Below are positions 1,302-35,829 of a stretch of 36,061 nucleotides of DNA, piece by piece. Source of the stretch: a virus; IMG/VR virus record IMGVR_UViG_3300043427_002137, positions 1 to 36,061 of that record; one strand, written 5' to 3'. The translations under genes and the position numbers were made by a program. The notes beneath the pieces were generated by a model, which was not told where the DNA came from, searched no databases, and saw nothing but the letters and a program-made list of their open reading frames with translations. The first letter of the stretch is position 1, and each line of letters begins with the position of its first letter.

Positions 1302-1750
1302 TCTTTTCGAAAAAACTTTCCAAGAAGATTATCATTTAGTGCCCGTTTATCACCAAGAACATCGTGAGAAAATTGTTCTTGTAATTCATAATAAGTAAGT
1401 GATTTGGTTGAAGAACAAAAACGAAGTATTCGTAATTCTAATTGATCATTTTCCTTATCTTTGAACCATTCTTGAACGTGTTTGTTTGAGGAACGATATG
1501 ATTTCCAATCCGATTCACTGGTAACCATCTCGTATGTTTTTAACCTTTTATCAGTTAATAAAGCAATTTCTTTTTTACCGAATTTTCTTTTTCTGGTTGA
1601 TAAAACATTTTTCTTTCCGATGTAATACTCACCAGTTTTTCCATTGGTAATTTTATAAATGAAACCAATTGTTCCTTTTGGCATGTCATTCAATTCAGTT
1701 ATAAAACTCCCGTTATATATCCAAGTCATAGTTAAAAATCGTGAAATCAT
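1292..1750 (-). CDS. GIY-YIG nuclease-like protein (Seg/homing-endonuclease type)
   Basis: Residues 28-47 hold the GIY-YIG signature in the form GFIYKITN then YYIGKK, giving the paired tyrosines of this nuclease fold; basic residues follow (RKRK around 53-56). Similar short proteins are common in marine T4-like phages as free-standing homing or restriction-like nucleases. No separate DNA-binding domain is obvious in the 152 residues. The start used is ATG 1750, which overlaps the end of the sulfotransferase by 38 bases; a second ATG at 1729 (before TWIYN) would cut the overlap to 17 bases. An A-rich leader before 1750 favours the first. Activity is inferred from the motif only. Confidence 0.7.
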   Translation of the reverse strand: MISRFLTMTWIYNGSFITELNDMPKGTIGFIYKITNGKTGEYYIGKKNVLSTRKRKFGKKEIALLTDKRLKTYEMVTSESDWKSYRSSNKHVQEWFKDKENDQLELRILRFCSSTKSLTYYELQEQFSHDVLGDKRALNDNLLGKFFRKDLE

Positions 1751-2285
1751 TTTTATATTTGTTTCTTACCCATTCTTTTAACCACTCTTCATTATAGTAT
1801 TGTTTGTATAATTTATGAGTGTTTAAATTTGGATGTTTTTCCCAATATACATTTCTATTTAAGTGTGGGATTTCATTTATAGATATATTAATTTTATTTA
1901 ATATGAAATTCAAATCAGTATTGAAGTTTTCGTACTTACCTACGAACGAAACTTTTTTTGTATTAGTTTGACCGTGATGAAGGTAATATTCTTGTGAAAA
2001 AAATAAAAAATCTAATGGACTTATAGATTCTATAAATGTAGAAAATAATTGAATTTCACCTTCTCGTTTTCTATGTTCGTACCAAGAAGCTAATCGTGTA
2101 AAGGGATTTCGTACAAATGAAAAAATAAAATAATCATCAACCCCTATTAATTGATTAAGTGTACCATGAGTAGTGATTTGTTCACTATCAGGTACACTTA
2201 ATAATATTTTTGATATAGAATTACCACCAGTTTTAGGTATATGAATATACGCCCATTTTTGTGGACGGTTTATAATTAATCCCAC
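1713..2285 (-). CDS. Sulfotransferase family protein
   Basis: Predicted to transfer sulfate from PAPS to a carbohydrate or other hydroxyl. The 5'-phosphosulfate loop is clear at residues 14-21 (YIHIPKTGG), and the 3'-phosphate site is FVRNPFTR at 57-64, followed by aromatic SWYE. At 190 residues it is short for the Sulfotransfer_2 family but covers both cofactor sites. The start is GTG at 2285: an in-frame TAA lies directly upstream, so nothing further upstream is possible, and no good ATG occurs before the P-loop. The gene is AT-rich and sits between small phage genes and the GIY-YIG gene, which looks like accessory cargo. The target could be host surface glycan, a virion glycan or a secreted polysaccharide. 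Confidence 0.75.
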   Translation of the reverse strand: MGLIINRPQKWAYIHIPKTGGNSISKILLSVPDSEQITTHGTLNQLIGVDDYFIFSFVRNPFTRLASWYEHRKREGEIQLFSTFIESISPLDFLFFSQEYYLHHGQTNTKKVSFVGKYENFNTDLNFILNKINISINEIPHLNRNVYWEKHPNLNTHKLYKQYYNEEWLKEWVRNKYKNDFTIFNYDLDI

Positions 2286-11101: not shown

Positions 11102-11926
11102 TTAAACGTATAAAATTGGTTTTATTAAACTTTGGTTTATGAGTATATTATAAATATCTTTTATTTTACCACCGCCCATTTTGTGATTTAAAACCACCAA
11201 TCTTACACATTCGAGTTTATCATTATTATCAAATTTATCTTGTCCTTGCCAATGATAATAAGAAGTTGATTTATTTAATTCATCAAATTCTAACTCATAG
11301 TATTGAACTATTTTATATAACAAATGCTCGAATATAAAATGAGAACTAAGAGATTTATTAGAATGAAATTCTATATTTCGATTAATTAAAATATTTTCAT
11401 TATCCAAATACCACTTTCTTAATTTAATATACGATTTTAAGAAATACTGAAGTAATTCATCATTTCCCTTCCAGTAAAATATTCCAGTAGAAAATGAAGA
11501 TTTTAAATCAGAATCCCATTCAGTAACAATTTTGTTCAATTCATATTCATTTAAAATTTCTAAACAATCTTTTGCATAACCATCTTTTTGTTCTGAAATT
11601 ATAGTATCAATTGATAATATACTTCTTTTGTTTATTTTTAATGGTTCATGTAAAAATATATCTCCATCCAATATCATGTATTCATCGGTTCTTGTTGATA
11701 AAATATGAAGTTTTAAATCATCAAAGAACTTATAATCTAAATTATCGATATTATGAATTTCATCAACATATTCTCCCAATTTTTCAAGTGTATCAGATGT
11801 TCCATATAATACTGTCTCATACCCTAAATCCTTTCCCATTTGGATTGATAAATAAAACATATCATAAACAAACGAGGGTTGTAATTCATTTTTATTCTTG
11901 TTATATAAACCCCAAACTAATTTCAT
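11102..11926 (-). CDS. Glycosyltransferase-like protein (GT-A fold, DUF6734-like)
   Basis: A 274-residue protein. The strand-then-helix start MKLVWGLYNKN and the motif EYMILDGDIFLH, with D87-G-D89, match the metal-binding DxD of GT-A glycosyltransferases. A later segment, SSFSTGIFYWKG, would suit the acceptor side, and LNHKMGGG near the C-terminus suits donor diphosphate contact. It resembles Bacteroidetes proteins of the DUF6734 type. The gene sits inside the tail operon, between the 511-residue and PEGA genes with 11- and 24-base gaps, and is far more AT-rich than its structural neighbours (11 G/C in the 60 bases from 11341). It is plausibly cargo that glycosylates tail proteins or host surface sugars. 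Fold fairly sure, substrate unknown. Confidence 0.6.
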   Translation of the reverse strand: MKLVWGLYNKNKNELQPSFVYDMFYLSIQMGKDLGYETVLYGTSDTLEKLGEYVDEIHNIDNLDYKFFDDLKLHILSTRTDEYMILDGDIFLHEPLKINKRSILSIDTIISEQKDGYAKDCLEILNEYELNKIVTEWDSDLKSSFSTGIFYWKGNDELLQYFLKSYIKLRKWYLDNENILINRNIEFHSNKSLSSHFIFEHLLYKIVQYYELEFDELNKSTSYYHWQGQDKFDNNDKLECVRLVVLNHKMGGGKIKDIYNILINQSLIKPILYV

Positions 11927-18408: not shown

Positions 18409-19605
18409 TTAATTACCTTTTGATGGAAATCTAGTCCATCCATTACTCCAACTAGGTTTATCTAAACCATCCAATACAGATAGGATTTCCTTATTATTTT
18501 TACCTAACGCTAAAGTTTTAAGTTGGTCATTTGTTAGGATTGTGGTTGCTCTACTAATGAAATTTAGAGTAGGATTAAATGTTCCTACTGAATTGGTTTC
18601 AAATACTGAAACACCATCTTTTACGAATTGTGCAGTTTCATTACTTTCCAAACTCAATCCACCTTTCATCCATCCCCATACTATACTATTCTTCATTGTG
18701 AATTGTGTCCCTCTTCGGAATCTTAATCCTACATTGTGATTAGATAATGCAGTTGATACATTGGGTCCTACCAAAATCATATTGAATAACTTTGGATGTG
18801 TTAATGGTTGTGCAGATGAACCAGTTCCATCATTATCACACTCTATACCATTTCCAGCATCACCACTATCTACGAATTGAGGGTCTCTCTTTGCTACACC
18901 ATTTGTAATAGTCCCGGTGTATCCAAAATCAAAATCAAAATCATCATCAGCAGTTGCAAATGCATATAAGTTTTTAGCATTTACAGTTCCTCCAAAGAAC
19001 TCAAACGCATCATCGTTAGCATATATGGTTTGTACATTCTCTATAATCGTACCACTACCTACACCACCTAATGTTAATGCGTTGATTTCAGAGTTTGGAA
19101 GTGCTGCAATTCCTGCGTATTCAATCCTTACATATTTTAGAACACCACTATTATCGAAATCGTTGGTTCCACCGAATGCTCTACCAATACCACCTTCAAT
19201 AGTTGGTTCGGATGTTCTATTGGTTTTTGCTCTACCCAATATTACAATACCACCCCAATCACCAGGAGTTCTTTCACCTACTGCTTTACCAGATGTAAAT
19301 ACGATTGGTTTTGTTGCAGTTCCTTCTGCTATAATTTGTGCTCCTCTTTCAATTACTAATGCACCTTTCTCACTTATATCGGAAATGATTGTTGTTCCAG
19401 GTTGAATGATAAGTTTAGCACCATCGGTTACATACACATATCCTTTTAATGTCCACACTTTATCTGCGGTTAGTGTTGTGGTTGTGTTGATGTTACCAGT
19501 TAAGGTTGTTGATAGGGGAGTGTTGATAGGAGCATCATCTCCACCTAATTCTTTTTGGCAACTGAATAGTCCCAAGATTGCGAATAATACTAATAGTTTT
19601 CTCAT
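18409..19605 (-). CDS. Surface lipoprotein with parallel beta-helix, partner of the TonB receptor
   Basis: A 398-residue lipoprotein. The signal peptide MRKLLVLFAILGLFSC ends in a lipobox with the acylated cysteine at residue 16. The next residues, QKEL, resemble the flavobacterial surface-export signal (QK plus acidic residues), so it may be exposed on the cell surface. The mature part has repeated short strands with LIIQPGTTI and ALVIERGAQIIAEGTA, then PGDWGGIVILG, typical of a right-handed parallel beta-helix found in Bacteroidetes lipoproteins. It is not SusD-like, since SusD is helical. Its ATG overlaps the receptor's TGA by 4 bases (ATGA), so the two are translationally coupled, and a terminator follows it. 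A 60-base sample (18841-18900) contains 27 G/C, richer than most of the window. Substrate unknown. Confidence 0.85.
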   Translation of the reverse strand: MRKLLVLFAILGLFSCQKELGGDDAPINTPLSTTLTGNINTTTTLTADKVWTLKGYVYVTDGAKLIIQPGTTIISDISEKGALVIERGAQIIAEGTATKPIVFTSGKAVGERTPGDWGGIVILGRAKTNRTSEPTIEGGIGRAFGGTNDFDNSGVLKYVRIEYAGIAALPNSEINALTLGGVGSGTIIENVQTIYANDDAFEFFGGTVNAKNLYAFATADDDFDFDFGYTGTITNGVAKRDPQFVDSGDAGNGIECDNDGTGSSAQPLTHPKLFNMILVGPNVSTALSNHNVGLRFRRGTQFTMKNSIVWGWMKGGLSLESNETAQFVKDGVSVFETNSVGTFNPTLNFISRATTILTNDQLKTLALGKNNKEILSVLDGLDKPSWSNGWTRFPSKGN

Positions 19606-22079
19606 AATGTTAAATTTAGTGTTAGTGAAATTGTTTGTTCGTTGTTTGTTTTGATTAAATTTCTGTTTTGTACTTTTTGATAATAGATTGATGATTGGCC
19701 AAATACATCACCTATTGCCAATTTGATTTCTCCGTTTTTAAGTTTATGTAAAAAGGTTATATCCAATACATCTCTACTATTCTCAAAAATGTCTGGATAA
19801 CCCTGAAATCCTACTGCTGATATTCTATCTCCTACTCTGTTATGTGTTATATTAAGTGTGTTTTTATTTTTATGGATATTGACACCACCATTTACCACAT
19901 AGTTTGACTGTCCTTGTAATTGTCTTTTAGTTCCACCAACTTCCACCTCCGAGTTCATTAGTGAAGTATTTGTATACACATCCAACCATTCGGTAATGGT
20001 TTTACGAAACTCCAACTCAACTCCATAAAGAAGTGCATCATCAGGATTTGTATAGGTTAGTAGCAAATTGGATGGAACTGACCCATCTGCTACGATTTGT
20101 TCTATTGGTCTAATGAATTGTTTACCAAATAAGGATACTGAAATGTTCTCACCCATAGTTGGATATAATTCCCACTTCATATCTACATTGTATATGTCCG
20201 TTTTTTCCAAGTTTGAATTACCCAATATCTGTGCGTTTCTCACAAAATCATAGTACGCAAAATTAGCTACTTCTCTAAACTCAGGTCTTGCTAATGTTTT
20301 ACTTACCGAAAATCTATACTTTGTTTTATCCAAATTATATGAAAGATTTAGTGATGGTAGAACATCTAAATACTCTCTATTCACATTTACCTTTCCACCA
20401 CTAAAATCTGCAGTAGATACATCAAATAGGTTATACTCACCTCTCACACCTGTATTTAGTTTCCACTTACCCCATTCGTTTTCATACATTGAGTATAAAG
20501 AACCTAAATCAAAATCGGCAGTATATCTATCGGTATTGTTTGTTATCTCATCCATCAAATCTGCTGCAGTGTATCTAAAAACTCTGGCATTAAACCCTCT
20601 AATCTTTTTTAGATACCCACCACCAACTTTTATGTTACCCAAATCTTTGTTAAGGTTACCATTGAAACTATTCTCATCCATAATCGACCAGAAACGATAG
20701 GTATCTCTCCAAGCAGTAGTGTATGGTTCATCCACACCCAATGATTTGGTGATTGGATTTACTCTATAATCAGGTTGTTCTCTAAAAATAAAATTATATC
20801 CTAAATTGAAATCCCAAGTCCTAATCTTTCCATCAAATTGAGAATTAATTACAACATTGTTTATATGATTGGATGAATTGGTTAATACATCTTGTAGGTT
20901 ATCATAATTTTCACCACTACGGGTTAAGTAGGTATTATCCTCTTGATAATTTACTAATGTTTTCCAACTATATCTACTTTCACCCAAATATGTCAAGTTT
21001 AATAACCCATTTGTGGAAAATCTTTTTGTGTAAAGGATATCTTTATAATCGTATGCTAATTCAGTTGATGATTGGTAATCCTGTCTTTCAATATTATTTA
21101 GTGTGAATGAGTTTCTGATTGTTGAACTGAATAGCGAATTAAACTTACCTTTTGTATATCCAAAGGATAGTCCACCATTTAGATTTGGAATTGATTGAAA
21201 ATCCGTTTGGGTTGGGTTGCCGATTTGTTTTGTAAATAATCTCTTATCACCATTACCACTAATTCGGTATTTGTAGGTAGAAGGGAATGTGGAAGGGAAA
21301 TCGGTAGCTTGAACTAACTTAAAATCTCTAAAAGTTGAAACCGACCCCCAACCACTTCCCGATGATATATTGAAAAAATTATCAGATACTTCCTTAGTTG
21401 TAATTTGTACCAACCCACCACTCCAATCACCTGGTTGATTTGCAGATGCTGATTTAGATACTATAATGTTATCAATTAATGCGGTTGGGATTATATCAAA
21501 TGAAAATGCTCTCCTATCAGGTTCGGTTGATGGTAGAAGTGTTTTGTTTAGGATAGCAGAGTTGTATCTATCTGCCAATCCTCTTATCAATACAAACTTA
21601 TCATTTTGGATTGTCACACCACTCACTCTTTTAAGAGCATCTCCAACATTTCTATCGGGTGTTTTCTTAATGAAATCTATTGATACACCATCCGATACTA
21701 CTGATGAATTACGAATGGATTTTACAACTGAAACATCACTTACTTTCTGTCCAATTGCTTGTATTGTAACTTCTGTTAATTCAGTAGTTTCTTCTTCTAA
21801 TAGGATGTCTAATTGGATATTATCTTTTACATCTATTTGTTTTATAAAAGTTTTATATCCTAAAAATGATGCTCTTACTTCGTAAACACCAGTTGGAATA
21901 CTTATTTCGTAATTCGAATCTATATTAGAAGCAACACCTGATACTTTACCATCTGAATTTGTGAAAAGTATGTTTACAAATGGAAGTGGTTCTTTGATAG
22001 ATTTTGTAGAACCTTTAATGGTTACTTGGGAAAATAATAGATTCGGTAAAAGTAATAATAATAAAAATAAGCGTTTCAT
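19602..22079 (-). CDS. TonB-dependent outer-membrane receptor
   Basis: A full-length 825-residue outer-membrane transporter that would move a scarce nutrient inwards using TonB energy. Order of parts: signal peptide 1-17 (MKRLFLLLLLLPNLLFS), carboxypeptidase-regulatory-like domain about 19-105 (PFVNILFTNSDGKVSG to LLEEETTELTEV), plug about 115-235 (GDALKRVSGVTIQ, then RGLADRYNSAILN and STEPDRRAFSFD), and a 22-strand-like barrel to the end (closing TISLTLNLTL). The N-terminal extra domain is typical of Bacteroidetes. ATG 22079 is chosen because the next candidate upstream (22088) is a TTG that adds only ITM before the signal peptide. The gene sits inside the phage tail operon, on the same strand as its neighbours, without frameshift. 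The substrate cannot be read from sequence. Confidence 0.92.
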   Translation of the reverse strand: MKRLFLLLLLLPNLLFSQVTIKGSTKSIKEPLPFVNILFTNSDGKVSGVASNIDSNYEISIPTGVYEVRASFLGYKTFIKQIDVKDNIQLDILLEEETTELTEVTIQAIGQKVSDVSVVKSIRNSSVVSDGVSIDFIKKTPDRNVGDALKRVSGVTIQNDKFVLIRGLADRYNSAILNKTLLPSTEPDRRAFSFDIIPTALIDNIIVSKSASANQPGDWSGGLVQITTKEVSDNFFNISSGSGWGSVSTFRDFKLVQATDFPSTFPSTYKYRISGNGDKRLFTKQIGNPTQTDFQSIPNLNGGLSFGYTKGKFNSLFSSTIRNSFTLNNIERQDYQSSTELAYDYKDILYTKRFSTNGLLNLTYLGESRYSWKTLVNYQEDNTYLTRSGENYDNLQDVLTNSSNHINNVVINSQFDGKIRTWDFNLGYNFIFREQPDYRVNPITKSLGVDEPYTTAWRDTYRFWSIMDENSFNGNLNKDLGNIKVGGGYLKKIRGFNARVFRYTAADLMDEITNNTDRYTADFDLGSLYSMYENEWGKWKLNTGVRGEYNLFDVSTADFSGGKVNVNREYLDVLPSLNLSYNLDKTKYRFSVSKTLARPEFREVANFAYYDFVRNAQILGNSNLEKTDIYNVDMKWELYPTMGENISVSLFGKQFIRPIEQIVADGSVPSNLLLTYTNPDDALLYGVELEFRKTITEWLDVYTNTSLMNSEVEVGGTKRQLQGQSNYVVNGGVNIHKNKNTLNITHNRVGDRISAVGFQGYPDIFENSRDVLDITFLHKLKNGEIKLAIGDVFGQSSIYYQKVQNRNLIKTNNEQTISLTLNLTL

Positions 22080-22106
22080 AGTTATCAAGTTAGTTCCCCA
22101 ATAACT

Positions 22107-25885: not shown

Positions 25886-25921
25886 ACTAAACGAAAAAAC
25901 CTCACCGAAGTGAGGTTTTTT
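25886..25921 (-). terminator. Strong terminator with UUCG tetraloop after the dioxygenase gene
   Basis: A 12-bp stem (CCTCAC/GTGAGG plus A/T pairs, 25894-25905 with 25910-25921) closes on TTCG as read on the minus strand, giving the very stable C(UUCG)G tetraloop. A T-rich end follows. The stop codon of the dioxygenase overlaps the stem. The T runs on both sides could also stop transcription from the other strand. Confidence 0.92.
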
Positions 25922-26711
25922 AATCTTTATTAAAAAAATTTATAAATGCAAATCTTTTAAAATTATCATCTATTACAGGATTCACACTATGTAATATATT
26001 ATTTTTTGTAAAATCCAATATTGCAATATTACCAAATATAGGTTCAATTATATTTTTGTTATCTATTACAAGTTCACCTCCAAACTCATTTTTATAATCA
26101 TCATTTAAATATATTAAAATAACACATAGTCTTCCATCTACATATCCGTCACTATGTGGTTCAATAAAATTATTTTTAACATATAAAGTTAAAGTATTAC
26201 CTCTTAATATATTTTTAATATACATTTCATAGTCAGAAATATAATCTGAGTATAATGCCATTATACTTTTTTGATAAATTTTTGAAACTATATTGTTAAG
26301 TGTAGCAGACTCCGATACGAGTGTCTTAAAATACCAAGTTTGAGATATAATAGATGATATTTTTTTTAAAATATTTTCAATTTTTTTTAACGAATCAAAA
26401 CTTCCTACTATTCTTGGTGATAAGTAAAGATATTTTTTATTATTTTGTTCATATATATTATAATTAAATTTTGACCCTTCACTAAGTTCATATTCTTTAA
26501 TTATATTTTGAAAATAAAAATCAATATCATCTATTCCAACTGGAAAATCATCAAGGTCAATTGAACCATCATATCTTAACGAATCTATAATATTAAATTG
26601 AATTTCTTTATCAAAATTATTATATAATTCATTATATAACGATTCATCTAAATCTTTTATATTAAATGATAAATATCCTTCTTTTAATAACCTCTCTTTA
26701 TCTAAAACCAT
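25920..26711 (-). CDS. 2-oxoglutarate/Fe(II)-dependent dioxygenase
   Basis: A 263-residue protein. The C-terminal half has the iron and cosubstrate ligands of the P4H-like 2OG-Fe(II) superfamily: H186 and D188 in IEPHSDGY, H241 in ILHSVNP, and R253 in FKRFAF. The stretch GRLCVILIYLNDDY then GGELVI between them is the standard core. The N-terminal part is unfamiliar. Such phage enzymes may hydroxylate protein side chains, sugars or nucleobases; the substrate is unknown. The gene is extremely AT-rich (8 G/C in the 60 bases 26341-26400) and ends at a strong terminator, which suggests a transferable cargo gene. Confidence 0.78.
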   Translation of the reverse strand: MVLDKERLLKEGYLSFNIKDLDESLYNELYNNFDKEIQFNIIDSLRYDGSIDLDDFPVGIDDIDFYFQNIIKEYELSEGSKFNYNIYEQNNKKYLYLSPRIVGSFDSLKKIENILKKISSIISQTWYFKTLVSESATLNNIVSKIYQKSIMALYSDYISDYEMYIKNILRGNTLTLYVKNNFIEPHSDGYVDGRLCVILIYLNDDYKNEFGGELVIDNKNIIEPIFGNIAILDFTKNNILHSVNPVIDDNFKRFAFINFFNKD

Positions 26712-27462: not shown

Positions 27463-29178
27463 TTATTTTATTTTCTTTTTTACAATATAATTGTGTAATA
27501 CTAATATATCCATTTCACAATCCAAGAATGTTTTTATTGCAGTTTCTGGATCTAAAACCATTGTTTGGTCTTTCAAATTAAAGGATGTATTAAGAACAAT
27601 TGGATAACCATTATCCCTCTCTAATTGATTAAGCAATTTGTAGATACGAGTATGTTGTCTATTATTAAGAGTTTGAATTCTAGCAGAACCATCCACATGA
27701 GTAATAGCAGGTAGATTTTTTCTATGTTCTTCTTTCACCTTCACCACTTGATTCATATAAGGAACAAGATGTTTGTAATCAAAGTATTTCATTCGTTCTT
27801 CCTCTTTTACAATTGGTGCAAAAGGTCTAAACCCTTCTCGTTTCTTAATAACACGATTGACTCGTGCTTTCATTTGTGGGTCTCGTGGATTAGCGAGAAT
27901 AGAACGATTCCCAAGGGCTCGAGAACCAAACTCCATTCTACCCTCGAACCAACCAACCACATTTCCATCAGTAATTTCTTTACTGATGATTGGAATAATC
28001 TCGGAGTGGTTTTTATATTCATACCAAACATCATCTTTATATTGTTCTAAAACTTTTAATATTTCTTCATTTGTATAGGATGGTCCTAAATACGGATTAG
28101 TATTTATAACTCTTGTTTTGTTATTCAATTCATTATACCAATAATAAAGTGCAGACCCGATAGCAGAACCTGCATCCGATGGAGCAGCTGGAATCCAAAG
28201 ACCTTTAAATGGAGTCATGTGGGTTATCTTTCCATTAGCAGTTCCGTTGTAAGCACATCCTCCACTCAAACAAACATTATTAGTAGGTCTTAATGCAATT
28301 GCACGATTGAGTAATTTAAAGAAATAATGTTCGTATTGAAATTGTAAAGTTGCAGCTAAATCCTTATGGTCTTGTGTTATTTCTTCATCTGGTAATCTAT
28401 TAGTGATTCCAAGTAATTCTCCAAGATTTTCATTAAACATAGATTTATTATCCCAATCATAAGTGAAATACTCCATATTGATTTTATAACCACCTTCATT
28501 GGTAGGTGAAATAATTTTGAAAAACTTGCCTAAGTATTTTCTATAATCACCATATGGGGCTAGACCCATTACTTTATACTCACCTTCATTGGGTTTGAAT
28601 CCAAGAAACGCGGTGAAAGCAGAATACAACATTCCTAATGAATCTGGAAAATCTATTGTTTGTAATTTAACTATTCGGTTTTCTTCTCCATACGCAATTA
28701 CGGTAGTTTCCCATTCCCCAACTCCATCTACCGAAACAATCATAGACCTCTCATAAGGTGATGTATAAAATGAGTACGCTAGATGAGAAAGGTGATGTTC
28801 GGTGTAGAATAATTTAGAAGTTGGAAATAACTTTTTAATTTCTTTTTCTACCCTTTTGTATTCGTGTTTATTATTGTAAATTATTTTTTGTCTATTGATT
28901 TCATTAAGAACCCCACCTCGTTTTGTAGATTTTTCAATTCTATCAATTTTAGTATCAGGTATTTCATAAAAGGTCACTACATCTATATCACTTGGTGTGA
29001 TACCATGAGTTTCTAATAACCAATTAATAGTATTGATTGGAAAAGATGAATCGTGTTTGATACCAGTAAATCTTTCTTCTTCTACTGCACCAACAACTTC
29101 ACCATTCTTAATAAGTGCTGCAGCTGAATCATGGTACCCACAACTTATACCTAAAATAAAAAAATTATTCGTCTTCAT
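27463..29178 (-). CDS. NodU/CmcH-family O-carbamoyltransferase
   Basis: A 571-residue enzyme that would transfer a carbamoyl group from carbamoyl phosphate, through a carbamoyl-adenylate, to a hydroxyl. The N-terminal kinase-like domain starts FILGISCGYHDSAAAL, with EEERFTGIKHD at about 34-43 and the histidine cluster HHLSH at 128-132. The C-terminal YrdC-like domain is recognised by GWFEGRMEFGSRALGNRS (about 408-426). The size is usual for the family. ATG 29178 is chosen; TTG 29181 adds one residue. It overlaps the sigma gene by 14 bases and ends at a terminator. Phage targets may be nucleobases (with hydroxymethyl groups) or sugars; the neighbouring dioxygenase and distant glycan genes make either possible. 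Confidence 0.9.
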   Translation of the reverse strand: MKTNNFFILGISCGYHDSAAALIKNGEVVGAVEEERFTGIKHDSSFPINTINWLLETHGITPSDIDVVTFYEIPDTKIDRIEKSTKRGGVLNEINRQKIIYNNKHEYKRVEKEIKKLFPTSKLFYTEHHLSHLAYSFYTSPYERSMIVSVDGVGEWETTVIAYGEENRIVKLQTIDFPDSLGMLYSAFTAFLGFKPNEGEYKVMGLAPYGDYRKYLGKFFKIISPTNEGGYKINMEYFTYDWDNKSMFNENLGELLGITNRLPDEEITQDHKDLAATLQFQYEHYFFKLLNRAIALRPTNNVCLSGGCAYNGTANGKITHMTPFKGLWIPAAPSDAGSAIGSALYYWYNELNNKTRVINTNPYLGPSYTNEEILKVLEQYKDDVWYEYKNHSEIIPIISKEITDGNVVGWFEGRMEFGSRALGNRSILANPRDPQMKARVNRVIKKREGFRPFAPIVKEEERMKYFDYKHLVPYMNQVVKVKEEHRKNLPAITHVDGSARIQTLNNRQHTRIYKLLNQLERDNGYPIVLNTSFNLKDQTMVLDPETAIKTFLDCEMDILVLHNYIVKKKIK

Positions 29179-29929
29179 CAAATATATCTAATTCAAGTTC
29201 TATTTTAGAAGTATCAATCCAAAAAGGTTTTTCACTTACAGAAAAATCCCCATTCTCAAGATACTCGTTTAACATTTTTTTCTGATGTTGTTTCATTATA
29301 TTTACAACTTTGGTAATATAATGGGTTTTACAATCAGTCATTTCTCTTATAAGTAGATACAAGTGTTTTTTATTGAAATTTTCTATGTATTGACTTCTAC
29401 GAAACAACTCCAATACTGCATCTGCAATTTGTATATCTCTTTTTTTATTGAATACGGTAGCAAGATGTTTATCCCAATACTCTAACATTATATCATTAAA
29501 CTCTCTGAATTCAGTAGCCTCCTCTGTTTCATAGAAATCATTTTCAGGATTCCATGTTTCTGGCATTTCTGAAATTAGAGCATTCTGTTTCCATCTCTTG
29601 TAATTACCATTATTTTTTAGAATCAAATGATTCTTTGCAATAATAGTAAAGTATGAGAATGCTCTACCCTTACCTTCTTTGTACATATGCATTTTTTCAA
29701 CCATTGTAGAAACTACTTCTGTTTGAATGTCTTTTTTAGGTACATCAAAGTAAGAGAATTTGAATGTGTTAATTACATTTTCTGCCAATTTTTCAAATGG
29801 ATATTTAATTCTTTCTTCGTAGATTCTTGACCTTTTGATTGGATCTTTTGTTTTATTATATTCAACTATTGCATCTTGTGCAGGAGTACCAAAATAAATT
29901 TTATCTTTTGGTTTTCTTTGTTTCATCAT
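29165..29929 (-). CDS. gp55-like late-transcription sigma factor
   Basis: A 254-residue protein. The conserved core GRAFSYFTIIAKNHL (88-102) matches the sigma region 2-like motif of T4 gp55 and marine phage relatives, with helical flanks before it and NGNYKRWKQN after. Proteins of this kind direct host RNA polymerase to late phage promoters together with the sliding clamp. The C-terminus reads IELELDIFDEDE, an acidic and hydrophobic tail like the clamp-binding end of gp55. The start can be 29929 or the second ATG at 29926. It is 1 base from the 87-residue membrane gene and overlaps the carbamoyltransferase. This is the obvious candidate for reading the ATATTTATAT word, although that link is not shown. 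Confidence 0.72.
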   Translation of the reverse strand: MMKQRKPKDKIYFGTPAQDAIVEYNKTKDPIKRSRIYEERIKYPFEKLAENVINTFKFSYFDVPKKDIQTEVVSTMVEKMHMYKEGKGRAFSYFTIIAKNHLILKNNGNYKRWKQNALISEMPETWNPENDFYETEEATEFREFNDIMLEYWDKHLATVFNKKRDIQIADAVLELFRRSQYIENFNKKHLYLLIREMTDCKTHYITKVVNIMKQHQKKMLNEYLENGDFSVSEKPFWIDTSKIELELDIFDEDE

Positions 29930-31743: not shown

Positions 31744-31761
31744 AATTGTTGTATTTTAATT

Positions 31762-32760
31762 TTATTTTCTTGTTATTTTTTTTATATTATTTCGTACATA
31801 GTAGTTATCATGAAAAAAACTATTGAATAATCCTTCATTTTTTATATTACTTTTCATACACATTAAATCAAAAAGATTGTCTGAAAAATGTTGTGGTATT
31901 TCGGATTCTTCAATTTCAAATGATAACATATCAATTGCAAATTCTTTTATACCATTTACTATTTTTATTTTATCATTAAAATATTTTTGATTTTCAGTAT
32001 TATCTTCATTTATAAATTGAGTTTCAATTATATCAACATAAGTTCCAACTTTATCGGTGAATACTGATTCAAAAAATATAATGTTATCTTTAAAATAGCA
32101 TTTTTCAAAATCATAAAAACCTTTAGTATTTTTTAAATCAATGTTTCCTTTGTAGGTCATATACCTACCTTTTAAATTCAAATTAAATGTTTTTTGTAAA
32201 TAATATTGAGTAGTTCCCTGAAATCCACTATCAATCATATACAGATTATTATAACCGCCAATTGTTTGATAAATATAATTTCCATATTCAGCTCTTACCC
32301 TATCTGATTTTTTTAGTATATCAGATATGTAAAAATTTAAATCGGGTAATTCATAATTCGTATTTATTTGGATATCATTTTCAATAATAATGTCTAACCC
32401 AAATCTATGTTTAAGTAATTCAGAAAGAGTACCTTCATATCGGTGAAGTTTGAATGATTCGTATATATCTTCGTTGGAAACATACGAAGATAGGGATGCC
32501 AACTTTCTTGATGTTTTAAAATATACTGAATTTGGTAGATGGTATTTCTCTTTAAACAGCTGATATATCTCACTAAGAAAATATCCCTCTCTTGAATTGA
32601 ATAGGATTAAATCACCATCTTTTACTTCGTTCTTTAACCAAAACAGGTAATTAAAAACAAGAGGTCCAAAGAAAATATATCCAAGTTCTTCTAATGATTC
32701 TGGATTCCCAAAGTCTTTATCCTTCAATAACTCATTTGAAATATCTGATATTGTTCTCAT
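31762..32760 (-). CDS. COG5610-like protein of polysaccharide gene clusters
   Basis: A 332-residue protein. Residues 29-67 (YIFFGPLVFNYLFWL, then LILFNSREGYFLSEIY) and FKTSRKLASLSS at about 81-92 match the pattern of the predicted HAD-like proteins (COG5610) encoded in bacterial surface-polysaccharide loci. The usual FLSRDG-type motif is FNSREG here, and no N-terminal HAD DxD motif is present, so catalytic activity is uncertain. It overlaps the upstream PNKP-like gene by one base. It supports the view that this block acts on glycans, whether of the host or the virion. Confidence 0.5.
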   Translation of the reverse strand: MRTISDISNELLKDKDFGNPESLEELGYIFFGPLVFNYLFWLKNEVKDGDLILFNSREGYFLSEIYQLFKEKYHLPNSVYFKTSRKLASLSSYVSNEDIYESFKLHRYEGTLSELLKHRFGLDIIIENDIQINTNYELPDLNFYISDILKKSDRVRAEYGNYIYQTIGGYNNLYMIDSGFQGTTQYYLQKTFNLNLKGRYMTYKGNIDLKNTKGFYDFEKCYFKDNIIFFESVFTDKVGTYVDIIETQFINEDNTENQKYFNDKIKIVNGIKEFAIDMLSFEIEESEIPQHFSDNLFDLMCMKSNIKNEGLFNSFFHDNYYVRNNIKKITRK

Positions 32761-33191
32761 TATACATGAACTTTAAAAGATGGTATTTCAAAACTAGTCC
32801 ACAAATCAATTATCTCTTGTTTATCATCAAACGCACAAAATACTTCATCATCAATTAAATCAATATACATATTTCGTTTTAATTCCACATCTTTAATGAA
32901 ATGATTTTCTTTACTTCTCATGTGTAATCTATCGTAGAAAACAGTATAGTTCTCCAACCAATCTTTGGTAGATTCTTCTATTGATTCTGGTCTACTTGTT
33001 AATAATACGATTTCAAACTTATCAAATAACCGATTTACAATATCAATCATTGGATAGTTTGGTTCATCTGATATTACATTTTTATAATCATATAAAACAT
33101 CCCAATCTACACTATCATCAAGTTTAGTTGCAAGTTCATACCTCTTTTTATTTATTGCAAGAGTATTATCTATATCAACTATCACAATCAT
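32760..33191 (-). CDS. HAD phosphatase, PNKP 3'-phosphatase-like
   Basis: A 143-residue single-domain HAD phosphatase. The nucleophile motif is D6-I-D8-N-T, motif II is LLTSRPE (64-69, with T65/S66), the Lys is in VELKRNMY (about K105), and motif III is FDDKQEIIDLW (D122/D123). This arrangement resembles the phosphatase domain of T4 polynucleotide kinase without its kinase half. It may remove 3'-phosphate from nicked RNA or DNA, or it may be a sugar-phosphate phosphatase, in keeping with its neighbours. It is coupled to the radical SAM gene by an ATGA overlap. Confidence 0.7.
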   Translation of the reverse strand: MIVIVDIDNTLAINKKRYELATKLDDSVDWDVLYDYKNVISDEPNYPMIDIVNRLFDKFEIVLLTSRPESIEESTKDWLENYTVFYDRLHMRSKENHFIKDVELKRNMYIDLIDDEVFCAFDDKQEIIDLWTSFEIPSFKVHV

Positions 33192-34387
33192 TTTCGTAAA
33201 CCTTGTTCTTTATAACTTACAGGTACTTTGATTCCTGTATTACACCCATTACAATTATCACAAAATGTGATGTATCCAAGTTCGGTAAATCCTAAATCAA
33301 ACTTAATCAAATCTTCGGATGAAACATCGGATAGATTTACATAATCATTATCGTTTAGTGGAAATAATTTTGTAAGTACCGCTGATGTATTCAAGTGACA
33401 ATAGTAAAACTTACCATCGTTTAATCCTCTAAAAGGTGCAGTACAATTATCAAAGTGGTTAATGAGTTCTTCTTCACTCATATTGTTTTTGATTCTTAAA
33501 TCACCAAAGTCATACCATTCAATATTATTTCTAACATAATGATTGATATTATTTACCTTGTAAGTATCTACAACTCTTTCAACTTTACTTTTTAGCTTTT
33601 CTAATTTGTTTGAGTAATTACTTACACTTAAAATAACATCGTTGTTTTTTAATACTCCTAATATTTCTTCTCGTGGTAAGACTGTTCCATTAGTTGTTAT
33701 TATAAACTTGTCAATTTTATCTGAATACTTTTCTAAAATATATTCAATAATATCTTTAATGTTTGGATGTAGAAACGGTTCACCACCAACTAAATGGAAA
33801 ATACTTACATAATCAACAAGATTAAAATACGAATCAATATCACTTAAAATGATTTGAGTATCTCTATGTTTTGGTAGTTCGTAATGAGGTATAAACATAT
33901 TACAAAACGAACATGCTAAATTACATTTTTCAGTTACCAATACATCGGTTTGAAATATGTGAACCTTTTGTGTATGTATGAAAGGCCAAATAGATGCAAT
34001 GTTTTTATACCAAGTATATTTTACATTTCGTTTATCTAAATATTCTTTATAGTATTGTCTGTACTCATCCGATGTGATAATTACATTTTCCCCATTTGAT
34101 TGAAAATTATCAATATGGACTAATTTTAAATTCTCACGAGTGTTAGTAAGAGTTTTAGATTGATGATAAAATGAACTTATTTCATTTACGTTAATCAAAT
34201 TTGATTCATTCTTTACATCGTGGTCAACTATATATTTAATTTTTAGAACATCATTACCCAATAGATAATCTACACTCCTAATGAATTGGACACATTCTTT
34301 ACTAGCACCAAATAGTACATACTCTTTGTCAGTATCCCAATCGGATATAAATTTATTAAAGTTGTGTAGATTTGGATTGTATTTCAT
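33188..34387 (-). CDS. Radical SAM enzyme with SPASM-like C-terminal cluster
   Basis: A 399-residue protein. Residues 22-130 are a Rossmann-like region (YVLFGASKECVQFI). The radical SAM cluster is C155-NLA-C159-SF-C162, followed by GGEP (201-204) for SAM binding and TTNGT (231-235). The C-terminal cysteines C315, C330, C376, C379 and C382 look like a second iron-sulfur cluster as in SPASM/twitch enzymes. Proteins of this shape modify sugars, peptides or metabolites by radical chemistry. It sits between the deformylase gene (1-base gap) and the PNKP-like phosphatase (4-base ATGA overlap). The exact reaction cannot be inferred. Confidence 0.82.
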   Translation of the reverse strand: MKYNPNLHNFNKFISDWDTDKEYVLFGASKECVQFIRSVDYLLGNDVLKIKYIVDHDVKNESNLINVNEISSFYHQSKTLTNTRENLKLVHIDNFQSNGENVIITSDEYRQYYKEYLDKRNVKYTWYKNIASIWPFIHTQKVHIFQTDVLVTEKCNLACSFCNMFIPHYELPKHRDTQIILSDIDSYFNLVDYVSIFHLVGGEPFLHPNIKDIIEYILEKYSDKIDKFIITTNGTVLPREEILGVLKNNDVILSVSNYSNKLEKLKSKVERVVDTYKVNNINHYVRNNIEWYDFGDLRIKNNMSEEELINHFDNCTAPFRGLNDGKFYYCHLNTSAVLTKLFPLNDNDYVNLSDVSSEDLIKFDLGFTELGYITFCDNCNGCNTGIKVPVSYKEQGLRK

Positions 34388-34388
34388 T

Positions 34389-35000
34389 TTAAAGTACTTC
34401 TACTCCAGGAATTAGTTGTGCCTTCTTATATTTCATGAACTCGGTTTCACCATTTGGTAATTTAACCATCACCATCTCGTTTCTACCATATCTTTTTGGT
34501 GCGTAATAAGTAGGATTATATCTTCTAATAGGGTCTGTAATTAATACACCATTCAAGTGGTCAATTTCATGTTGAGCACATACGGATTCTAATAATCCCA
34601 TATCTTGAAAAAATTCGTGTCCATCCTTCCAATTACCAAGTTTATTATCTGGAGAAAAAACTACAGTACCCAAATTATCACATTCAATTGTAATTGATTT
34701 GTGTCTAACAGTCTTTATTGGTTTCCTCATTGTTTTAGGAATAGATAAACATTGTTCTACATAAGCAACGGTATCTTGTGATACTTCAATTACTACTGGA
34801 TTAATTAGTACAAGTGGTTCTTTTACATTGATGACACATGCACGAACATCTAATCCGATTTGATTTGCAGATAATCCAATACCACCGTATTGAGTTAAAC
34901 CTTCCAATAACTTTACAGAGATTTCATCAATCTCTTCTTGAGTCATTGGGTTGGATTGGATTGGATTTGTAAGTTTTAAAGGATTTTTAATTAATGTCAT
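34389..35000 (-). CDS. def: Peptide deformylase
   Basis: Removes the N-terminal formyl group from new proteins. A 203-residue protein with all three metal-site motifs: GIGLSANQ (40-47), QCLS (83-86, metal ligand C84) and QHEIDH (143-148, ligands H144 and H148, catalytic E145). The canonical EGCLS is changed to EQCLS here, which is unusual but lies next to the ligand, not on it. Short deformylases are known in marine phages, where they may adjust host or phage protein maturation. It precedes the radical SAM gene with a 1-base gap. Confidence 0.93.
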   Translation of the reverse strand: MTLIKNPLKLTNPIQSNPMTQEEIDEISVKLLEGLTQYGGIGLSANQIGLDVRACVINVKEPLVLINPVVIEVSQDTVAYVEQCLSIPKTMRKPIKTVRHKSITIECDNLGTVVFSPDNKLGNWKDGHEFFQDMGLLESVCAQHEIDHLNGVLITDPIRRYNPTYYAPKRYGRNEMVMVKLPNGETEFMKYKKAQLIPGVEVL

Positions 35001-35003
35001 AAC

Positions 35004-35306
35004 TTATTTAGTTGGGTGATATGGATTTATAAATTGTTTTTTGTAATACTCATCAGTATATTCTACTGAACTTGGAAAAATTGATTTTCTAGTTTCATCA
35101 CTTATTAATGTTCGCTCGGATAAATCTCCACCAAATGGCCGTTCGTAAATAGTTTCGCCTTTATCAGGTGATTCATATATCTTTTTATCTTTCATTTCTT
35201 CCATCAACTTATCTTGATATTCTCTTTCTTTCCAATATAGTTCTCTTACTTTTGCACCTAATTCATTATTGTTTGGATACATTTCTACTAGTTCTTTGAT
35301 ATTCAT
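35004..35306 (-). CDS. Unknown protein, charged, about 100 residues
   Basis: A charged 100-residue protein with an N-terminal helix (MNIKELVEMYPNNNELG, then VRELYWKEREYQDKLMEE) and a Tyr/Pro-rich end (QFINPYHPTK). The start is set at ATG 35306, which overlaps the stop of the nucleotidyltransferase by one base; the longer frame begins at a TTG at 35342 within that gene. No family is recognised. It is coupled to the nucleotidyltransferase, and the deformylase follows after 3 bases. Confidence 0.6.
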   Translation of the reverse strand: MNIKELVEMYPNNNELGAKVRELYWKEREYQDKLMEEMKDKKIYESPDKGETIYERPFGGDLSERTLISDETRKSIFPSSVEYTDEYYKKQFINPYHPTK

Positions 35307-35782
35307 TATTCTGCTAAGTTTAAATATTTTTCTAATAACCAAGATGATGATTGTACCTTATCTCCAAGCCCCCAAACCGAATCAATACCCAATACATCAC
35401 ATACTGAATTTTCAGGAGTAGTTGTTTCGGTCCTATCTCCACCATTACCAAACGCCATAACACCTCGTGGTAAATCACCATTTTCTCTAATGTATTTTCG
35501 TTTAGATTTTTCGATAAAATCAATTGCAGTATTATCCAAGTGGTCCTTTGGATTCATAACATAAACCCAATCTACATTTTTAAGATTGCTCATTATGAAT
35601 GCTCGTTCTTGTTCATTCATAAATGACCTTCCTTTTTTTCTTTGTAGCCACTCATCGTTGTTTAGTCCAATCCAAACTTGGTCTGCAAGTTCTTTGGCAT
35701 TGTTGATACATTCAATGTGTCCTTTGTGAACTGGATCAAATCCACCACTAATCAAGATTACTTTATATTTTTTTGTTTCCAT
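35306..35782 (-). CDS. Cytidylyltransferase-like nucleotidyltransferase
   Basis: A 158-residue enzyme of the HxGH nucleotidyltransferase superfamily, which joins a nucleotide to a sugar-phosphate or alcohol-phosphate. The signature is GGFDPVHKGH (13-22, H19 and H22). The pattern NDEWLQRKKGRSFMNEQERA (43-61) matches the RfaE2/TagD type. GNGGDRT at about 112-118 is a variation also seen in phage relatives. It is the first gene after a host-type promoter and probably starts the accessory sugar block. The exact product (activated heptose, glycerol or other) is not certain; a NadD-like role is less likely from these motifs. Confidence 0.78.
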   Translation of the reverse strand: METKKYKVILISGGFDPVHKGHIECINNAKELADQVWIGLNNDEWLQRKKGRSFMNEQERAFIMSNLKNVDWVYVMNPKDHLDNTAIDFIEKSKRKYIRENGDLPRGVMAFGNGGDRTETTTPENSVCDVLGIDSVWGLGDKVQSSSWLLEKYLNLAE

Positions 35783-35798
35783 AACTTTTTTATTTTTA

Positions 35799-35829
35799 CA
35801 AATATACGAAATTATTTTCTATTTTCAAA
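35799..35829 (-). promoter_or_regulatory. Host-type (Bacteroidetes sigma) promoter for the nucleotidyltransferase
   Basis: Minus-strand TTTG (35829-35826), 19 bases, then TATATTTG (35806-35799), ending 16 bases before ATG 35782. The upstream box lies inside the 3' end of the unfinished gene at the right edge. Confidence 0.75.

Follow-up and report, generated by a model that had tools for sequence, protein, structure and literature searches.

The viral record IMGVR_UViG_3300043427_002137 of IMG/VR (36,061 bases, G+C 30%, nearly every gene on the minus strand; referred to as the window) carries three adjacent genes, which code for a radical S-adenosylmethionine (SAM) enzyme (rSAM), a HAD phosphatase and a 332-aa protein, and which together form a mobile cassette that has moved between phages. 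By homology to characterized polysaccharide ribofuranosyltransferases, and with the support of a structure model, the 332-aa protein is predicted to be a glycan phosphoribosyltransferase (gPRT). The cassette probably performs ribofuranosylation of a glycan with phosphoribosyl pyrophosphate (PRPP) as donor, followed by dephosphorylation and radical tailoring.

Conserved linkage and mobility of the cassette

Searching IMG/VR with the rSAM sequence yielded 37 close relatives and one distant one (L039). The 37 close loci all have rSAM, HAD and the 332-aa protein (PRT) in succession, with order and strand unchanged. An independent scan with the PRT returned the same contigs together with L090, which also has the triad, and L092, whose contig lacks upstream DNA; outside the window, the triad is thus present at each of the 38 loci that allow it to be seen. 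The rSAM and HAD genes share a 4-bp ATGA overlap wherever both were called (36/36 loci), the open reading frames (ORFs) of HAD and PRT overlap in 36/36 loci as well, and in L029 HAD and PRT are fused into one 471-aa protein.

The preliminary description of this region had proposed a role in making a modified sugar or glycan, which is supported by the homology of the PRT and by the genomic context of the triad. A long sugar-biosynthesis operon surrounds the triad, or adjoins it where the contig is cut, in 30 of the 37 loci, containing varying subsets of NAD-dependent epimerases, a dTDP-4-dehydrorhamnose 3,5-epimerase-like protein, a split thiamine-diphosphate enzyme, a GT7-type glycosyltransferase and a second radical SAM protein. 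Because the triad sits in such operons, a glycan is its likeliest target.

Two components of these operons in jumbo phages deserve mention in their own right. The split thiamine-diphosphate enzyme (L006:5368-5997 and L022:12515-13060, plus strand) has an E1-alpha-like half directly upstream of rSAM and a transketolase-pyrimidine half downstream, and possibly serves the formation of two-carbon branched sugars. The second radical SAM protein (471 aa; L006:1690-3105, plus strand) is conserved across the jumbo-phage sugar operons.

Among 84,980 bacterial and archaeal species genomes, close rSAM relatives were found on a single contig, in a Pelagibacterales metagenome-assembled genome (MAG) with the same operon, and this contig is possibly a mis-binned phage. 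In 299 sampled genomes of the phylum of this MAG, distant PRT and rSAM relatives were detected, never together except in the MAG itself.

Evidence for lateral movement comes from both nucleotide comparison and phylogenetic analyses. In blastn comparisons of the window with phages carrying the triad in sugar operons (L002-L011 and others), similarity spans approximately 31750-34398, that is, the triad only, and is 89.6% over 2,645 bp for L002. In the rSAM and PRT trees, the window clusters with these operon-context phages, apart from the syntenic lineage with the same backbone. Monophyly of the syntenic group was rejected by approximately unbiased (AU) tests on quick trees of rSAM and PRT (p = 2.8e-14 and 5.7e-4), and descent of the triad with the backbone is therefore rejected. 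In the baseplate protein, the window shares 73% identity with the syntenic lineage and with L022, and about 54% with other jumbo phages.

Core genes and empty insertion sites

Relatives of the phage backbone were gathered by scans with the peptide deformylase (PDF) and the core protein at 29165-29929; their common gene order is NT-ORF112-PDF-o93-...-NodU, where NT is a nucleotidyltransferase of HldE/RfaE-domain-II-like type with a cytidylyltransferase fold. In 69 distinct PDF loci (duplicates removed), o93 starts less than 40 bp from the end of PDF and the triad is absent. The gap between PDF and o93 is occupied in four distinct loci (L012, L016, L017 and L020) and in the window, in each case by exactly the triad. 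The closest core relative of the window (L093; PDF 85% and o87 100% identical) represents an empty site, and rSAM is also absent from two long relatives (289 and 276 kb).

The preliminary description had placed NT, rSAM, HAD and the 332-aa protein (called COG5610-like) in one contiguous, tightly packed block. All four genes lie where it put them on the minus strand, and Pfam matches agree for NT, rSAM and HAD. The block itself does not hold, since ORF112 and PDF, the latter overlooked earlier, are located between NT and rSAM. In the order of transcription (NT, ORF112, PDF, rSAM, HAD, PRT), the genes are spaced by -1, +3, +1, -4 and -1 bp, so the packing is real, but on its own it is weak evidence because 17 of 38 neighboring gene pairs in the window are equally close (≤4 bp). 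The rSAM-HAD and HAD-PRT overlaps conserved in 36/36 loci carry more weight. Conserved co-occurrence, the lack of which the preliminary description had named as its refutation, was recovered for rSAM, HAD and PRT but not for NT, which accompanies PDF in 56 of the 69 triad-less loci and was not detected next to the triad elsewhere. NT, ORF112 and PDF are thus phage core genes outside the cassette.

These observations bear on the pathway implied by the four-gene block, in which NT makes a nucleoside diphosphate (NDP)-sugar, rSAM remodels it and the COG5610-like protein uses it. The NT fold is genuine, the gene is nearby on the same strand, and L002-like operons are rich in nucleotide-sugar enzymes. 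However, NT belongs to the core and was not detected beside the triad in other lineages, and the transferase is assigned to a PRPP-using family; these points speak against the logic of NDP activation, and we consider this pathway highly improbable.

A NodU-type carbamoyltransferase, kept in nearly all core relatives, is a possible further modifier of glycans or nucleic acids.

The 332-aa protein as a predicted glycan phosphoribosyltransferase

No match to the 332-aa protein was obtained in Pfam, PHROGs or NCBIfam profiles, and its identity was solved only by structure prediction. An AlphaFold model built from 28 sequences (pLDDT 91.7) matched in the PDB the Thermobacillus composti polysaccharide ribofuranosyl transferase (7shg; Z 26.3, 306 residues aligned, root mean square deviation 2.9) and region 611-976 (CriT; 8a0m) of the Haemophilus influenzae b capsule protein Bcs3 (Z 24.1 over 314 residues), the next best matches being nucleobase phosphoribosyltransferases (PRTases) at Z 6.4. 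Profile comparisons agree with this result. The phage PRT profile aligned with bacterial HAD-PRT proteins by hhalign (E 1.1e-21), the bacterial intermediate L042 matched 7shg (5.5e-22) and Bcs3 (3.3e-17) in sequence, and a joint phage and bacterial profile matched 7shg among PDB sequences (E 2.5e-9); the phage-only profile gave no match in that search, and the bacterial intermediates were needed.

The active-site loops are also recognizable. The PRPP pocket of Bcs3 includes S678, R679, D680, S707, R708, R712, E818 and T825 (PMC10299916). S56-R57-E58 and S84-R85 of the phage PRT align with S678-R679-D680 and S707-R708 of CriT, and S56, R57, E58, S84, R85 and D177 are invariant in 28 phage sequences. 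The phage loop D177-S-G-F-Q-G-T-T-Q (D177-x-G-x-x-G-T-T-Q) aligns with DVGWKGTIQ of 7shg, and the equal seven-residue spacing, rather than a direct alignment, suggests that D177 and T184 correspond to E818 and T825 of Bcs3. Both the fold and the active-site loops of the gPRT/CriT family are therefore found in the phage protein. The donor in this family is PRPP and not a nucleotide sugar (PMC10299916, PMC11127046), and PRPP may be expected to be the donor of the phage enzyme as well.

A different possibility is that the PRT acts on a nucleobase or another small molecule and that the product of the trio is a modified nucleoside or a signaling molecule. The superfamily fold is indeed common to purine PRTases, and the structural matches of rSAM include viperin-like enzymes, whose substrates are nucleotides; yet the similarity to glycan enzymes is far greater (Z 26 versus 6.4), and the D-x-G-x-x-GT and SR(E/D)G motifs are those of glycan PRTs and not of a DD-motif PRTase, which makes this alternative highly unlikely.

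The HAD phosphatase

In every locus whose contig includes upstream DNA, the HAD gene lies upstream of PRT, and in the bacterial relatives L042-L044 the two are fused. The combination of PRPP, a gPRT and a HAD phosphatase is a known ribofuranosylation pathway (PMC11127046, PMC11231755), and in the bacterial systems a capped HAD (PRP) strips the 5-phosphate after transfer (PMC11127046). The phage HAD is encoded with the gPRT as in these systems and is not of the capped PRP type: it is a small enzyme of the PNKP 3'-phosphatase type in which the catalytic residues are complete, D6, D8, T65, K105 and D123 being invariant and D122 nearly so (20 sequences). It may represent a functional replacement of the capped PRP, acting on the 5-phosphate of a phosphoribose attached to a glycan.

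Considering that PNKP-type enzymes belong to a nucleic-acid phosphatase family, DNA hypermodification might also be envisaged, with the PRT phosphoribosylating a hydroxylated base, the phosphatase trimming the product and rSAM modifying it. Against this stand the location of the triad in glycan operons in 30 relatives, the action of the characterized PRT relatives on glycans, and the thymidylate synthase of the relatives, which keeps the canonical LPFNIASY and not the hydroxymethylase motif. We regard such a role as very unlikely.

The radical SAM enzyme

The rSAM protein consists of an N-terminal Rossmann-like domain (approximately residues 1-140), a radical SAM core with C155xxxC159xxC162 and a C-terminal twitch (half-SPASM) domain with the pattern C315-x9-G-x4-C330...C376-x2-C379-x2-C382. 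The twitch pattern and all nine cysteines are invariant in 29 phage sequences. The CxxxCxxC and C-x9-15-G-x4-C...CxxC motifs of twitch enzymes are therefore present, and the seven-cysteine, two-cluster SPASM motif is absent, as only five C-terminal cysteines are conserved. The SPASM-like cluster of the preliminary description was right in kind and needs to be narrowed to a twitch domain with one auxiliary cluster. The structure comparison that it called for placed at the top, though without a clear lead, the sugar dehydrogenase SpeY (Z 13.4 over 229 aa), whose substrate is a sugar alcohol of the spectinomycin pathway. Distant bacterial relatives of rSAM adjoin GT2 glycosyltransferases. The SpeY structure is titled a twitch radical SAM dehydrogenase (PDB).

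It is also conceivable that rSAM is a protein or peptide maturase, of the sulfatase or ribosomally synthesized and post-translationally modified peptide (RiPP) type, which merely travels with the ribosylation pair. In structural comparison anSME and SuiB (Z 12-12.5) come near SpeY, and the best sub-threshold NCBIfam matches include peptide maturases. On the other hand, the five C-terminal cysteines would hold one auxiliary cluster versus two in SPASM enzymes, the N-terminal domain looks unlike a peptide recognition element, no precursor peptide was seen, and the ATGA coupling to HAD is universal in the loci with both genes called. This alternative appears unlikely, if somewhat less so than those above.

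Proposed pathway

The cassette would thus work as follows. Judging from its family, the gPRT would convert PRPP and an acceptor hydroxyl into an O-linked acceptor-Ribf-5-P and pyrophosphate, and HAD would remove the 5-phosphate to leave a ribofuranose. Afterwards or beforehand, the twitch rSAM might abstract hydrogen at a sugar carbon, either in the new pentofuranose or in the acceptor, giving a ketone or an epimer; this oxidation or epimerization is the weakest step of the mechanism. The acceptor may be a glycan of the host surface or of the virion, and the cassette could serve, for example, to alter that surface or to decorate the particle. Mean column identity is 77% for rSAM, 62% for HAD and 47% for PRT, as might be expected if the sugar substrate is constant and the acceptor varies. 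With PRPP, present in all cells, as donor, the cassette would be independent of nucleotide-sugar pathways and would function as a portable unit. A more specific version, in which the cassette is a phage-specific, self-contained mobile pathway of large phages that adds ribose from PRPP, dephosphorylates it and converts it by rSAM into a new pentofuranose (a keto sugar or a xylo-, arabino- or lyxofuranose epimer), is a serious possibility that falls a little short of being probable.

Several observations weigh against a PRPP-dependent glycan pathway. The HAD substrate is not assured, because the enzyme is of the PNKP type and not a capped bacterial phosphatase, and profile comparison shows no similarity between the phage HAD and its bacterial counterparts (hhalign probability 2%). 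R712 of CriT is not kept in the phage PRT, which has S89 there. The rSAM model is moderate (pLDDT 73), and several rSAM families lie within about 1 Z of SpeY. In the phage of the window itself, no sugar operon adjoins the triad, which stands alone; a PRPP donor could allow this, as no nucleotide-sugar supply would be required.

Relation to known systems

PRPP-dependent glycan ribosylation has been reported for bacterial loci that specify capsules, O antigens and cell walls. The phage PRT resembles 7shg, of the gPRT + PRP family, in its PRT fold and its SREG, SR and DxGxxGTxQ loops, whereas 7shg has its own N-terminal HAD and the phage PRT stands alone, with a separate PNKP-type HAD and an added radical SAM gene. 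It also resembles Bcs3 (CriT-CrpP; 8a0c/8a0m), with which the SRD and SR loops correspond, but Bcs3 is a multi-domain capsule polymerase with a ribitol-phosphate transferase and no radical SAM partner, and the phage PRT lacks R712. The Klebsiella O4/O7 ribofuranosyltransferases are, like the phage protein, encoded as a separate polypeptide within a polysaccharide locus, and their PRPP-dependent ribofuranosyl transfer is the activity predicted here; unlike the phage cassette, these systems are bacterial, carry gPRT and PRP on one chain and have no radical SAM enzyme (PMC11231755). The rSAM shares a core and a single-cluster twitch domain with the SpeY and BtrN twitch dehydrogenases and differs from them in its extra N-terminal domain and in having PRT and HAD as genetic partners. 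Finally, HAD matches the T4-type PNKP 3'-phosphatase (phrog_415, PF25109) at the family level, but it has no kinase domain and is a fixed partner of gPRT.

No gPRT was detected in 50,697 GenBank phage records by tblastn with either the phage PRT or a bacterial gPRT, comparison of the PRT with a viral structure library gave weak giant-virus matches only (TM approximately 0.4), and no report of a phage gPRT or a phage radical SAM sugar pathway was found in the literature searched. The single pieces are known; new, as far as tested, are the combination with rSAM, the exchange of the phosphatase and the organization as a phage cassette. A function is hereby proposed for a protein nameless in family libraries. 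If the proposed pathway is true, it would enable phages to alter a glycan of a surface or virion without nucleotide sugars, explain how as few as three genes can pass from phage to phage, and provide a compact enzyme set for modified pentofuranosides.

Gene layout and other features of the window

Features of the window are listed in Table 1.

Table 1. Coordinates of the cassette, its flanking core genes and other features of the window
Feature	Position	Strand	Evidence or remark
NT	35306-35782	-	PF01467, 3.5e-13; TIGR02199 match below cutoff
ORF112	35004-35342	-	likely start 35306, 1-bp overlap with NT
PDF	34389-35000	-	PF01327, 8e-25
rSAM, 399 aa	33188-34387	-	PF04055, 1.5e-13
HAD phosphatase, 143 aa	32760-33191	-	PF25109 (PNKP phosphatase domain), 1.7e-17; phrog_415
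Predicted gPRT (gPRT/CriT-like, 'COG5610-like'), 332 aa, stand-alone	31762-32760	-	structure model and profile comparison
rSAM-HAD-gPRT mobile cassette	31762-34387	-	inserted between PDF and core ORF o93
Core ORF o93, 93 aa	31462-31743	-	downstream flank of insertion site
NodU-type carbamoyltransferase	27463-29181	-	phrog_1601, PF02543/PF16861
2-oxoglutarate (2OG)-Fe(II) oxygenase	25920-26711	-	PF13640
TonB-dependent-receptor-like protein	19602-22088	-	CarboxypepD_reg-like, Plug, OMP_b-brl_3
Lipoprotein-like ORF	18409-19605	-	follows the TonB-dependent-receptor-like gene
Glycosyltransferase-like ORF	11102-11926	-	ILDGDIF; no Pfam match
Sulfotransferase	1713-2285	-	PF03567

The source of the window is a large phage, probably of Bacteroidota. 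The TonB-dependent-receptor-like protein, remarkable in a phage, points to hosts among the Bacteroidota, and its gene is no assembly accident, because a 78% identical receptor is encoded by the 201,940-bp phage of L006. No RNA was detected in the window by an Rfam search. A scan for Bacteroidota-type promoters gave 7 matches versus 3.6 expected, a weak excess, and the sequence TTTG-N19-TATATTTG at 35799-35829 (minus strand), just upstream of NT, resembles the -33/-7 promoter of Bacteroidota.

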